From positions 1,426,001-1,490,000 of the forward strand of contig NZ_CP043329.1 in NCBI RefSeq assembly GCF_008195825.1: DNA of 64,000 nucleotides. Reading direction: 5' to 3'. The notes under the pieces were generated by a model. The model saw nothing but the letters and a program-made list of their open reading frames with translations, was not told the origin of the DNA and ran no database searches. This stretch comes from Pedobacter aquae (GTDB taxonomy: Bacteria > Bacteroidota > Bacteroidia > Sphingobacteriales > Sphingobacteriaceae). Each line of letters starts with the position of its first letter. Position 1 is the stretch's first letter. This document shows, one piece after another, positions 4,681 through 46,184 of this stretch. The translations under genes and the position numbers were made by a program.

Positions 4681-7600
4681 CTAAAAAATTAACTTCTTAG
4701 CTAAAGCACCTTCTTTTTCTTTTAATGCTGTAATTGGGTACAAATAAAAGCTGTAATTGTAATTTTTAGCCTTGTTTTGATATTGCACTAAAGGCTGAGC
4801 AACATCAGACCAGGTATCATTACCGCCTACACCCATTTGTATCAAATCTATATTCAAGGTGATAAAGCCAGCGTCTTTAAGTTTATGCCAATGTTTGGTT
4901 TCTGATATATTTTTCTCTGTAAAAGGCCAAGCGCTCATGCTTAATAAACTATCGGCTACAACCATTAAGCCTTGCCCCTTGTTGTTATTGAGGAACATCC
5001 AACGAACATCTGTTCTGTTACCGTTTTCTTGAGGATATACATAAGGTTCCATAAACTGAGCTAAAGATTGGCTGTAAATGGCAGCATCAAAACCGTAGCG
5101 TCTGTCTACATAATTTTCTAATTCGCCACGTCCATACCATTTGATTTGGCTATAATCACGAGCGGTTGCTGTTTGCATACCAATTTTAGGGATGTTAGGC
5201 AGTGCCGGATGCGCTTCTAAAGCATAATCTACTTTTATTACCCCATCGCCATTAATGCTATAAAGAACATTTACACGGGCACTATCTTGAATTAAGGTAT
5301 AAGAGCTCTTGATTTTAATATTGTTAGCTAGGGTTTGGTCTAAACTGATGGATGCTAATTTAATTTCGCTATCATACCAAGGTTTAAGTTTTTTTGTTGG
5401 TTTCCAACCACGACGGTCGTTATCTGTTTGTGGGCGAGTAAAATCTGGCAATAAAGGTTGGAAAATTTGTTCTTTACCAGCCACTACATAAGAAACTAAA
5501 GCCCCATTTGCTTTATTAAACTTAACCGTGAAGGTTTTACCTTGTAGCTGAAACTCGTGTGGGCTTTCTTTAACCGTGATGTTAGCATAATTTCTTTTAT
5601 ACTTTCTATGCTGGGCCAATCCTGTTAAAGCAAATTGATTGGAAGCTATTTCATGACCTTTTTTAGCCCAAAGCTCATCTTTAGCAAGGGTAAAATGTAT
5701 ATCAGCCAAATACTCGCTGCCCGCTTTAAAACTAGGTAAATATTTAGCTATGCTAATTTCAGTTTCTTTTCCTGCTTCAAGATTTAAAATTGGCAAAGGT
5801 TTATTCAGGATAATTTCTCCATCTTCTCTGATGATGAGATGGATGTTATAACCCGCTAGTGATTTACTAGCATGACGATTTTGAATTCTCAAAACACCTT
5901 TTTCAGCATCAATTAAGGCTGTTTCTACAGGCTGGTAAATTCTTTTACACTCGTAAATAGCGGCTTTGGGTCTGCCATCTGATGCAACAATACCATTAAG
6001 ATTAAAATTACCGCTGTGGTTTTTCTCTCCAAAATCTCCTCCATAAGCTAAAAACTCTAGCCCAGTTGAATCTTTTTTATACAAGCCTTGGTCTTTATAA
6101 TCCCAAATAAAGCCACCTATTAAGCGTGGCTGACTTCTAAAAATATCCCAAAACTCTTTCATGTTACCTGTAGAGTTTCCCATAGAATGCGAGTATTCTA
6201 CAAAAAGTATTGGTCTTTTATCCCCGTTTTGCTGATTAAGCAGAAGTTCTGGGGTGTAAACTCCCGGGTAAAACCTGCTTACCATGTCTACATAATATTG
6301 ATCCACTGGGTTTTGTAAACGATGCGAATGGTCGTTAGTTTTAGGATAACGTGGGTCGCCCAATTCTATATAACCTTCTTCGGCATGACTACCCATAGCA
6401 GGTTCGTAATGTACTGGCCTGGTAATGTCAAAATCATGCAACCAAGCGGCCATAGCAGCGGTACTTGGACCTCTACCCGCTTCATTTCCTAAGCTCCACA
6501 TGATGATAGAAGGATGATTTTTATCGCGGTAAGCCATTCTGGTAACACGCTCTAAATGTGCCGCTACCCAAGCTTGGTCATTAGCCAATTTACCACCTAA
6601 ACCATGGGTTTCGTAATTGGCTTCATCCATCACTAAAATGCCATACTCATCGCACAACTCGTAAAAATAAGGGTCATTTGGATAATGACTGGTTCTGATG
6701 GCATTAAAATTAAACTGCTTCAATTGTGAAACATCTCTTTTGATATCATCACGCGTAAGCGCTTTACCCCTTCTTGGGTCGTGGTCATGACGGTTTACAC
6801 CATACAAATAAGTCTCTTTACCATTAATAAGCAGTTTGCTATTGGTTTTAGAAAACTCTACACTTCTAAAACCTACTTTGCAGCTTTTAGCCTCTAAGAG
6901 CTTACCATTTTTATCAAGCAAAGAAATTACTAAAGTGTATAAATGAGGCGTTTCATCGCTCCATTTTAAAGGATTTTTAACTTCGGCTTCAAGCAAACCA
7001 AATTTTACGTTATCTAAGCGTGGGTAAGATTCGTTAATAATAGACTCGGCACTGCGCTCTAAAGGTTTGCTAAATACAGGCTGCTTTTGCTGATTGTATA
7101 ATTGTGCTTTTACGATATAACCATCCGGGGCAACACCGGTAAAATTATCTAAACGTGGTCTTAAGCTAAATTTAGCATCTTGGTAGTTTTTATCCAGTTT
7201 AACCTGATAATGAAAATCAGCAATGCGTATTTTAGGCTCTGCCAGAAGCATCACCTCGCGTTGTATACCGCTCATTCTCCAATGGTCTTGATCTTCCAAA
7301 TAAGCACCATCGCTCCAGCGGATAACTTGAACAGAAATGATATTCTCTCCACTTTGCAAATAAGGTGTGGCATTAAACTCTGATGGTAGGCAACTATCCT
7401 CTGCATAACCTAAAAACTTACCGTTTAACCAAACTTTAAAAGCAGAACTTACCCCACCAAAATGTAAAGTAATATTCATGTCTTGCCAGTTTTGCGGTAA
7501 AGTGAAAGTTTTTTGAAAAGAACCTACAGCATTATAATCTTTAGGTACCCTTGGTGGGTCTATGGGGCGAAAAGGATATACCGCACTTTTATAAATAGGA

Positions 7601-8007
7601 ATGTCATAACCTTTTAGTTCCCAGTTTGATGGAACTTCTATTTTATCCCAGTTTTTAACCCTTTGTTTGTAAAAATCCTGAGGAGCATCGGCAGGTTTAA
7701 AAGCAAATTTAAAATCCCATTCTCCGTTAAGGAGTAACATTCTGGATTTCTCTCTTTTACCTTCTAAAGCATCGGCCTCGCTGGCAAAAGAATAAGCGGT
7801 AGCCCTTGCAGCATCACGGTTGATACTGGTAATTTCTGGCTGCTCCCAAGGTTCTGCATTAAAGATACCAGGCACAGGCGGAACAGTAGCTGGCAAACCA
7901 TCAACTGTTTGCGCTTGCGCTTGATAAAAAGCAAAAGCAGACAAGCCAAAAGCTAAAGAAACTCGCTTAATAAGCTTACGGCATATAATATGTTTTTGAT
8001 AATTCAT
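4681..8007 (-). CDS. Secreted GH2 beta-galactosidase (LacZ-like, with small-chain domain)
   Basis: The 1108-residue protein starts with a signal peptide (cleavage near AFYQAQAQ). It follows the full LacZ plan: sugar-binding jelly roll (about 45-250), Ig-like domain, TIM barrel (about 370-660) with the acid/base Glu in SLGNEAG and the nucleophile Glu in [12 protein letters not shown], a second Ig domain, and the beta-galactosidase small-chain domain (about 810-1100). It should hydrolyse terminal beta-galactosides in the periplasm, for instance galactan side chains of rhamnogalacturonan I. It is the last gene of a three-gene operon, 9 bp after the dehydratase gene. The exact substrate cannot be read from the sequence. 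Confidence 0.93.
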
Positions 8008-8016
8008 TTTTGATTT

Positions 8017-44504: not shown

Positions 44505-46064
44505 TTAGATGTTTTTAGATTTTAATCGAGTGATAAAAGCTCCCGTTAGGTAAATGGTTAAAGTACCTACAACAATAGTCATGTTGGCGTGTAGCGGATT
44601 TTTCAGATAAGCATAATCAACCGGAATAAGGTTAGATAGTGATAACCAAATGATAACCAAAATACCTACAATAGTAGCTGCAAAAGCTTCCATATTGCCA
44701 GATTTTTTACTGATGATACCTAGTAAAAACAAGCCCAGCATCCCTCCTGCAAATATGCCAGACAACTGCCACCAGATATCTAAAATACTTTTTACCCCTA
44801 TCATGGCTATGCCGCAAATCATCCCAAGCAAACCAAAAACCACAGTGGCTATATGTAGTAATTTCATATTTTGCTTTTCGCTGATATTTGCCTTGAAATA
44901 TCTTTTATAAATATCTTCTGAGAATACGGTTGCCGATGCATTCATTCCAGAACTGATGGTACTCATAGCCGCCGATAATATGGCTGAGACAATTAAACCG
45001 ATTAAGCCTGTTGGAATCATCGTAACCATAAAATGAGGCATAACTTTATCGCCATAATCTGCTGGTTGTAAACTGGCGGCTAGGTTTTTAATTTCTATTG
45101 AATTGGCATTTAAACCCAGCCTTTCTGCTGCTGCTTGTAGTTTTACTGCTTCTATAAGCTCTGGATTTACCTGATAGTAAGCATATAAACAAGTTCCTAT
45201 AATGAAAAACATTAAAGATGCTGGTACATATATCCACACACATAACCATACAGATTTTGCAGCTTCTTTCTCTGAGGATGCAGTATGATACCTTTGTACA
45301 TAATTTTGATCCATACCAAAATTGTTAAGGTTAATAAAAAAGCCATACAACAACACAACCCAAAACGTTGCTTGGGTAAAATCAAGAGATAAACTGCCTA
45401 AACTAAATTTATCATCCTGCTGGCCTATTGCTATAATCTTAGAAACTCCGCCCGGCATATCTACCACAATCAGATAAACTATCAATACAGCTCCTAAAGT
45501 TTTCAAAACACCTTGCACAACTTCTGTCCAGATAACAGCTTCAATACCGCCCATTACGGTGTAAATGATAATACAAATTCCGGTCACCAGCATGATGGTT
45601 TCCATGCTATAGCCCGTTAAGGCTTGCAGGGTTAAAGAAATCCCAAAGAAAATAGAGCCCATTCTGGCTAATTGGGTAAGTAAAAAACATACAACCGCAT
45701 AAGTTCTCGCCCACGCACCAAAACGTTTTTCTAAATTGGTATAGGCAGAAACTTCGCCTGTACTGCGGTAAAACGGAACAAAATATTTAGAAGCCACCCA
45801 AGCTGCTAAGGGCATAGATATGCTAAATACAAAGGCATTCCAATTTCCTCCAAATGCTTTTCCCGGCACACCTAAAAAAGTATTACTACTTAAAAAAGTT
45901 GCATATATAGACAAGCCTATAGCCCAACCCGGTATTAATCCTGATGCTTTGGTAAATTGGTCTGAGCTATTATTCCTCCTCGAAAAATAAACACCTACCA
46001 AAACCATGGCTACCAGATATATGGCAATAATTGCTAAATCTAGCAAGGGAAGATTTTTTATCAT
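44505..46064 (-). CDS. Sodium/solute symporter (SSS family), first gene of the sugar-acid operon
   Basis: The 519-residue protein has about 13-14 transmembrane helices with the family pattern (LLDLAIIAIYLVAMVLVGVYF; GWAIGLSIYATFLSSNTFLGVPGKAFGGNW; SAILSAAMSTISSGMNASATVF). It transports a solute with Na+. As first gene of the operon 46064-41880 it likely brings in the sugar or sugar acid used by the next two enzymes. Its start is preceded at 109 nt by the shared box at 46173-46184. Confidence 0.88.
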   Translation of the reverse strand: MIKNLPLLDLAIIAIYLVAMVLVGVYFSRRNNSSDQFTKASGLIPGWAIGLSIYATFLSSNTFLGVPGKAFGGNWNAFVFSISMPLAAWVASKYFVPFYRSTGEVSAYTNLEKRFGAWARTYAVVCFLLTQLARMGSIFFGISLTLQALTGYSMETIMLVTGICIIIYTVMGGIEAVIWTEVVQGVLKTLGAVLIVYLIVVDMPGGVSKIIAIGQQDDKFSLGSLSLDFTQATFWVVLLYGFFINLNNFGMDQNYVQRYHTASSEKEAAKSVWLCVWIYVPASLMFFIIGTCLYAYYQVNPELIEAVKLQAAAERLGLNANSIEIKNLAASLQPADYGDKVMPHFMVTMIPTGLIGLIVSAILSAAMSTISSGMNASATVFSEDIYKRYFKANISEKQNMKLLHIATVVFGLLGMICGIAMIGVKSILDIWWQLSGIFAGGMLGLFLLGIISKKSGNMEAFAATIVGILVIIWLSLSNLIPVDYAYLKNPLHANMTIVVGTLTIYLTGAFITRLKSKNI

Positions 46065-46121
46065 TACTAATATTTATTCAGGTTTAGGCGTAAAAGAATT
46101 GATTATAATCTCTTTACAAGA

Positions 46122-46184
46122 CAAAGCTATTTAGAATATACATGGAAGAACTAGCATATTTTCTCCAGCTTATGTAGGATATTA
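46122..46184 (-). promoter_or_regulatory. Shared regulatory module: TAnnTTTG promoter element plus upstream box, copy 3
   Basis: On the minus strand the box TAATATCCTACA (46184-46173) is followed after 44 bp by TAGCTTTG (46129-46122), an exact TAnnTTTG match. The SSS start codon is 109 nt from the box. The divergent PL11 gene starts 114 bp on the other side, so the box may serve both directions. Confidence 0.65.

Follow-up and report, generated by a model that had tools for sequence, protein, structure and literature searches.

A stretch of 64,000 nucleotides from Pedobacter aquae (contig NZ_CP043329.1, genome positions 1,426,001-1,490,000; hereafter the window), taken from a genome that consists of a single contig of 3.85 Mb, carries three copies of a promoter module, each upstream of a minus-strand operon. 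These modules are very probably operator-promoters of one chromosome-wide regulon for rhamnogalacturonan-II (RG-II), under the control of a stand-alone AraC/XylS-family activator encoded at genome 811,379-812,254. The direct repeat within the module, its period, its fixed spacing to the promoter, the missing -33 element, the ten sites in the P. aquae genome and the association with the AraC gene were all computed directly.

Anatomy of the promoter module

An earlier note on this DNA described a conserved box upstream of three operons, and the boxes were recovered where it had placed them, on the minus strand at window 11403-11418, 39783-39798 and 46169-46184. The distance between the box and the promoter is constant, with 55 bp from the first base of the box to the first base of the TAnnTTTG -7 element at all three sites. 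The note had given this spacing as 44 bp; its geometry is right but its count differs, as the 63 bp of the module are made up of a 12-bp box, 43 bp and an 8-bp element. The distance to the start codon agrees as well (108, 111 and 109 nt from the end of the box to the ATG for sites 1, 2 and 3), and a TAnnTTTG-type element is present at every site, although that of site 1 reads TAGCTTTA, one letter off the consensus. However, the statement that the operons otherwise share no upstream sequence does not hold, since a second half-site lies exactly 21 bp downstream of the box. The noted box and this second half-site form a direct repeat with a 21-bp period and the half-site GnTAAnATnnTAYA.

The second half-site is imperfect in the window, with modules 1, 2 and 3 showing one, one and two mismatches to the module pattern. 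Module 1 (11356-11420; 32.8 bits with the weight matrix described below) comprises half-site 1 at 11407-11420, half-site 2 at 11386-11399 and the aforementioned -7 element at 11356-11363. In module 2 (39736-39800; 38.5 bits), the corresponding parts are found at 39787-39800, 39766-39779 and 39736-39743, the last reading TATTTTTG, and in module 3 (46122-46186; 28.3 bits) at 46173-46186, 46152-46165 and 46122-46129, the last reading TAGCTTTG.

Ten modules in the genome

Searched singly at up to three mismatches, the 16-base box gives 19 matches in the window compared to 14.5 expected, a number reached by 13 of 100 shuffles. A single-box search of the genome at up to two mismatches (84 matches versus 51 in the control) was too noisy, and the full module was used instead. 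Combining the box with the -7 element (TAAnATCnTACA, 43 bp, TAnnTTTG; at most two mismatches) yielded 28 matches versus 13 in the control. Eight sites have zero or one mismatch, of which three lie in the window and five at 813-848 kb; two further sites that were aligned with them, at 798,892 and 3,059,237, have two. Alignment of these ten sites revealed the second copy of the box exactly 21 bp downstream, together with a G at -2 and +19 in ten out of ten, neither letter being part of the search pattern.

The full module pattern, allowing up to three mismatches, matches the same ten places and no others, while the reversed pattern matches once. The other 18 of the 28 box and -7 matches are missed by the full pattern at this limit and were taken as background. 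Furthermore, a weight matrix derived from 87 sites outside the P. aquae genome and applied to 270 kb of P. aquae blocks places the same ten above 9 bits and nothing else, with none in the reversed sequence. The regulon of three operons proposed earlier is thus larger, with ten promoters, only three of which lie in the window. The search that the earlier note suggested, for the box at its fixed promoter spacing in the genome and in relatives, recovered the module in the genome and in part of the family.

Promoter geometry in relatives

Promoters of Bacteroidota are of the -33/-7 type. The geometry around the operator was assessed with a search for the direct repeat without promoter letters (at most one mismatch) in two partly overlapping sets of relatives, comprising 40 stretches (722,697 bases) and 80 AraC loci, some of the latter belonging to genomes that also bear G handles here. 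The stretches contain 51 repeats, with TAnnTTTG at +55 exact in 37 and within one letter in 49; the AraC loci contain 61, with the element exact in 24 and within one letter in 59. The reversed repeat is found in neither set. At any other offset (36-94), a -7-like element reaches a maximum of 4/51 in the stretches and 3/61 at the AraC loci. TTTG is absent at offsets 28-38 in both sets (0/51 and 0/61), and therefore no -33 element is conserved. The half-site period is 21 in 44 of 48 pairs, the remainder being 23 (three pairs) and 31 (one pair), and letter 62, which was not searched for, is G in 29 of 30 family sites.

Two same-facing half-sites about 21 bp apart, that is two helical turns, have the layout of a direct-repeat operator, while the fixed distance and the placement at the position of the upstream promoter element are those of a class II operator. 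Binding, dimerisation, activation and the inducer are inferred. The AraC protein would bind as two subunits to the same-facing half-sites, with the downstream half-site, which ends 22 bp before the -7 element, occupying the place of the non-conserved -33 element. Since this half-site replaces the -33 element, the activator most likely touches sigma/RNA polymerase directly in a class II-like manner. The idea in the earlier note that rigid spacing points to contact with RNA polymerase is thereby upheld, as a deduction from the spacing.

A candidate AraC/XylS-family regulator

The regulator had been expected outside the window, and the candidate gene (811,379-812,254, minus strand) is indeed located elsewhere, in a gene cluster at 798-856 kb. 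It encodes a stand-alone protein of 291 aa, the C-terminus of which matches HTH_18 (E = 1.1e-19, residues 208-285) and HTH_AraC (E = 2.1e-12), as is typical of the AraC/XylS family; its N-terminal part matches no Pfam family at E <= 0.001. It lacks the combination of periplasmic Reg_prop sensor, histidine kinase and receiver in one protein that defines a hybrid two-component system (HTCS). Both putative helix-turn-helix (HTH) recognition regions are nearly invariant across 25 orthologs. The nearest named orthologs are those of Pedobacter, including one from Pedobacter puniceum that is 99% identical to the candidate.

A survey of 151 genomes of the Sphingobacteriaceae (module at no more than one mismatch, AraC ortholog at 56% identity or above) found the module in 55 genomes, with reversed-control counts of 0 among the rows listed, and the ortholog likewise in 55; 53 genomes carry both. 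Within the nine genera in which both states occur, module and AraC ortholog agree in 91 of 95 genomes, compared to a maximum of 73 in 10,000 within-genus shuffles; for the RG-II marker BT_1020, agreement is seen in 80 of the 95. The two are also close on the chromosome: among the matches listed, 32 of 42 orthologs lie less than 5 kb from a module versus 0 of 49 paralogs, in a test made on 40 of the 55 module genomes, second copies included.

The 80 AraC loci were fetched by protein, after an initial look with two HTH-domain peptides, and are the best 80 of 381 confirmed. A module (at most three mismatches) is found within about 6 kb in 68 of these best 80, and the reversed module in none. Judged by record titles, 13 loci lie outside the Sphingobacteriaceae, in Spirosoma, Larkinella, Fibrella, Siphonobacter, a Cytophagales metagenome-assembled genome and Flavobacterium, and 12 of them have the module. 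In addition, a class-wide search of 395 genomes (15 in the family, 380 outside) with a stricter pattern that includes the final G, at no more than one mismatch, matches four genomes, three of them in the family. Taken together, the ten promoters are probably run by one AraC-type activator encoded elsewhere on the chromosome.

The 798-856 kb cluster and the probable substrate of the regulon

The cluster that houses the candidate gene encodes an alpha-D-galacturonidase (NCBIfam, above cut-off) and MGH1-like, GH28, GH95 and GH2 proteins, followed by DUF3826, SusD, PelZ-like (below cut-off), apiosidase, GH43-like and BT_1020-like proteins, by GH78, BNR, Fe-ADH, DHDPS and PdxA proteins, and by a DUF1537-type kinase (SBD_N/NBD_C), an SSS symporter, GH106 and GH127. 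The open reading frames at 813,407 and 823,584 are putatively SusC-like, judged from size and place. Enzymes of the regulon are related to the solved structures 5mqp (BT_1002), 5mqr, 5mqm, 5mt2 and 3kzs/5msy; the last four correspond to BT1020, BT0986, BT0996 and BT1012, and all five act on RG-II. In PMC7939467, BT1012 and BT0996 are named RG-II enzymes, and DUF3826 is found in BT1017 and resembles BT1022. Signature enzymes of RG-II breakdown thus stand behind a common operator, and the substrate of the regulon is best read as RG-II. This agrees with the rhamnogalacturonan theme of the earlier note while making the polymer more precise. The uronate isomerase gene uxaC was considered as a pathway gene of the regulon and set aside, as it lies at 3,664,714, away from all ten modules.

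The module at 823022-823086 (plus strand) is followed by no long frame before the next module 400 bp on, and is possibly an orphan promoter. A PelZ-like remnant was sought after this module at 823,024, with no convincing match (best E = 0.75). In the relatives G031 and G048, its counterpart precedes a second PelZ-like gene and then a SusC-like gene.

Operons in the window

Operon membership and extent were inferred from strand, order and gaps, and all three operons lie on the minus strand. The first, behind module 1, starts with a GH78-type alpha-rhamnosidase-like protein of 733 aa (9098-11299; Pfam), followed by an enolase-superfamily (MR_MLE) sugar-acid dehydratase-like protein (8017-9090), for which the best NCBIfam model is talarate/galactarate dehydratase, below cut-off, and by a GH2 beta-galactosidase-like protein (4681-8007). 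In the relative G011, a 70% identical homolog of this GH2 protein is encoded by the first gene downstream of a module.

Operon 2, behind module 2, starts with a GH78 alpha-L-rhamnosidase (36915-39676) that is split into two overlapping frames of 335 and 591 aa (38669-39676 and 36915-38690). In three relatives, the GH78 homolog after the module is one frame of 927-941 aa, and the split would reflect a frame break or an assembly error. The next gene (35815-36918) encodes a relative (E = 2.8e-115) of the solved enzyme 5mt2/5muj/5mui, which is deposited as a beta-galactosidase and corresponds to the GH137 domain of the RG-II enzyme BT0996. It is followed by a GH2 enzyme (33400-35805) and a GH141 relative of BT_1002 (31473-33398; 5mqp, E = 5.7e-207). 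The distal genes (27818-31525), assigned to the operon by strand and order, encode a RhaM-like protein (30797-31525), a GFO/IDH/MocA oxidoreductase (29492-30562) and an SSS symporter (27818-29410).

Operon 3, behind module 3, encodes an SSS symporter (44505-46064), a DHDPS/NAL-superfamily aldolase (43542-44480) and a protein with a predicted L-fucose/D-arabinose isomerase fold (41880-43496). Homologs of the aldolase in the fetched stretches are 53-73% identical, with one further copy at 40%. Divergent from this operon, at 46298-48441 on the plus strand, a family-11 rhamnogalacturonan lyase appears split, with its N-terminal domain in 46298-46663 and the remainder in 46645-48441.

Core targets and the proposed inducer

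The first gene of each of 89 modules at the 80 AraC loci, defined as the longest frame starting within 500 bp of the module and matched to P. aquae proteins, is most often the ortholog of the operon 3 symporter (42), followed by DUF3826 (16), the isomerase-like protein (8), an MGH1-like protein (7), SusC-like proteins (5) and Fe-ADH (4), with 7 other or none. In the symporter operon, the DHDPS-type aldolase gene is next. Of 40 copies of the isomerase gene from 39 family genomes, 32 are divergent from an AraC homolog that lies no more than 1 kb away; these homologs are 48-77% identical to the candidate, the lowest (48-49%) being those of G074 and G083. The eight copies placed otherwise include those of P. 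aquae (656 kb apart) and G084 (608 kb), and in G140 (contig C46, 1464-2917) the isomerase gene is in two pieces. Two frames of 553 aa with identical first 40 residues occur at window 20035-21696 (plus strand) and at genome 856642-858303 (minus strand), the latter at the edge of the 798-856 kb cluster; they are perhaps a mobile element connected with the way in which the AraC and isomerase genes became separated.

The predicted structure of the isomerase (predicted local distance difference test, pLDDT, 85) matches L-fucose and D-arabinose isomerases in Foldseek (E = 1.6e-18 to 4c20 and 2.3e-18 to the D-arabinose isomerase 3a9r) with a probability of 1.00 but a TM-score of about 0.5 and a root mean square deviation above 20, which assigns it to the FucI/AraA fold; its match to the Pfam fucose isomerase family is below cut-off. 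From gene content and this model, the trio of isomerase, aldolase and symporter would fit the breakdown of 3-deoxy-D-manno-octulosonic acid (KDO). A cytoplasmic sugar on which the trio acts is the probable inducer, the best guess being KDO or another 2-keto-3-deoxy sugar of RG-II. In the operon 3 route, KDO would be cleaved by the DHDPS-type aldolase into pyruvate and D-arabinose, which the FucI-fold isomerase would convert to D-ribulose.

A row of genes for Fe-ADH, DHDPS, PdxA, a DUF1537-type kinase and an SSS symporter is located at genome 838408-844304 (plus strand), inside an RG-II operon, and resembles a pathway acting on the acid sugar 3-deoxy-D-lyxo-heptulosaric acid (DHA). Its later steps would follow the D-threonate kinase/PdxA2 route. 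DHA would yield pyruvate and a C4 aldehyde acid, which would be converted to D-threonate, D-threonate 4-phosphate and finally dihydroxyacetone phosphate; the stereochemistry, by which DHA gives D-threonate, is proposed by reasoning. We tentatively suggest, as a possibility that is rather doubtful in its full form, that the AraC protein senses, in the cytoplasm, a 2-keto-3-deoxy sugar found only in RG-II and has both catabolic routes (operon 3 and 838-844 kb) among its targets. No earlier report of either the KDO or the DHA route was found in the open-licence literature searched.

Weighing of alternative explanations

Several observations weigh against a single RG-II regulon under the candidate AraC protein. 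The module is present without the AraC ortholog in G020 and G082, and the ortholog without the module in G113 and G140, the gene of the latter lying at a contig end; G113 has a degenerate module with four mismatches about 138 bp upstream of its isomerase gene. Both the mismatch limits and the line of 56% identity were chosen with the match lists in view, and a line at 54% makes G112 a third AraC-only genome. In P. aquae itself, about 625 kb separate the candidate gene from the closest module in the window. Of the 42 orthologs, ten lie more than 5 kb from a module, including those of G041 and G110 (409 and 610 kb) and two on contigs for which no site was listed. The strict pattern matches one of the 380 class genomes outside the family (G333, two sites). 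The BT_1020 family is missing from 16 of the 55 module genomes, and G142 has BT_1020 without AraC ortholog or module. The structure prediction of the AraC protein is poor (pLDDT 52). The weakest of the ten sites, at 3,059,237, scores 13.7 bits; it is only tentatively a member, upstream of an ECF (extracytoplasmic function) sigma factor at 3,058,535-3,059,068.

Three other explanations of the modules were weighed. It is improbable that an HTCS with an AraC-type domain binds the repeat and that the stand-alone AraC gene is merely a neighbour. Reg_prop proteins do occur in the genome, the HTCS motifs of Bacteroides likewise consist of direct repeats, with a mean spacing of 21 bp (PMC3878776), and the RG-II locus of Bacteroides thetaiotaomicron encodes the HTCS BT0981 (PMC3243724). 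However, the 38 Reg_prop matches, near 242, 607, 999, 1586, 1983 and 3750 kb, all fall outside both the window and the 798-856 kb cluster, and the stand-alone AraC gene co-occurs with the module in 53 genomes, often adjoining it, in counts that cover stand-alone AraC genes. The reading of the earlier note, in which the regulator senses L-rhamnose freed by rhamnosidases, is a little less probable still. The set includes GH78 and GH106 rhamnosidases as well as a RhaM-like protein, and RhaR of Bacteroides is an AraC protein whose direct-repeat motif has a 21-bp periodicity (PMC3870299). Against it, the genes most often found behind the module across genera encode the operon 3 symporter, DUF3826, the isomerase and the MGH1-like hydrolase, and are not rhamnose genes; L-rhamnose isomerase RhaA (PF06134, E <= 0.001) was not found in the genome, and the rhamnose isomerase, kinase and aldolase that a RhaR-type regulon controls are absent from the annotated module targets. 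Finally, the slight enrichment of the single box in the window would suit modules that arose by chance in AT-rich promoter DNA or were carried along as repeats by mobile DNA, which is nevertheless extremely unlikely, as the reversed control gives one match versus ten in the P. aquae genome and none among the rows listed for the 151 genomes. The searches with the repeat alone and with the weight matrix contradict it as well. In addition, the bases between the conserved letters vary among sites, and thus the sites are not recent copies.

Relation to known systems and significance

The E. coli AraC protein binds two direct half-sites 21 bp apart at araI1-I2 of araBAD, the downstream one beside the -35 element. 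The araBAD promoter has sigma-70 -35/-10 elements, whereas in the present modules the promoter element is the Bacteroidota -7 sequence TAnnTTTG, and no -33 element is conserved. The Bacteroides regulons HTCS_Rgu-1 and HTCS_Rgu-2 share with the present system an AraC-type DNA-binding domain, direct repeats of about 21 bp and pectin polysaccharide utilisation loci with SusC/SusD, but are under an HTCS, whereas the present candidate is an AraC protein of 291 aa that stands alone. No motif could be predicted for the RG-II HTCS BT0981, and constant spacing to the -7 element is not mentioned in the accessible text on these regulons (Ravcheev 2013, PMC3878776). The Bacteroides RhaR is likewise an AraC-family activator with a 21-bp direct repeat, but its regulon is one for rhamnose (Rodionov 2013, PMC3870299), while here ten RG-II promoters occur in a genome in which no RhaA was found. 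The B. thetaiotaomicron locus BT0977-1030 encodes related enzymes for the same polymer and has an HTCS regulator, and two RG-II-responsive loci lack an associated regulator (PMC3243724). In P. aquae, by contrast, the genes under one operator are spread over several chromosomal places, at 798-856 kb, in the window at 1430-1472 kb and possibly at 3059 kb. No earlier report of the operator or of an AraC regulator of RG-II was found in the open-licence literature searched, and none of the terms looked for occurs in PMC12596196. The architecture of an AraC protein or HTCS on a 21-bp direct repeat is already known in Bacteroides, and what is new, as far as the literature searched shows, is the RG-II operator, the candidate regulator and the geometry.

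An operator, its promoter geometry and a candidate gene for the regulator can hereby be assigned to the RG-II regulon. Promoters that lack a conserved -33 element and hold the repeat at an exact distance from the -7 element offer a handle on how activators of Bacteroidota may recruit RNA polymerase, and the conserved trio of symporter, aldolase and isomerase points towards enzymes for the rare sugars of RG-II. If the proposed sensing holds true, one diagnostic monosaccharide would be the signal that triggers degradation of RG-II, the most complex plant pectic polysaccharide.

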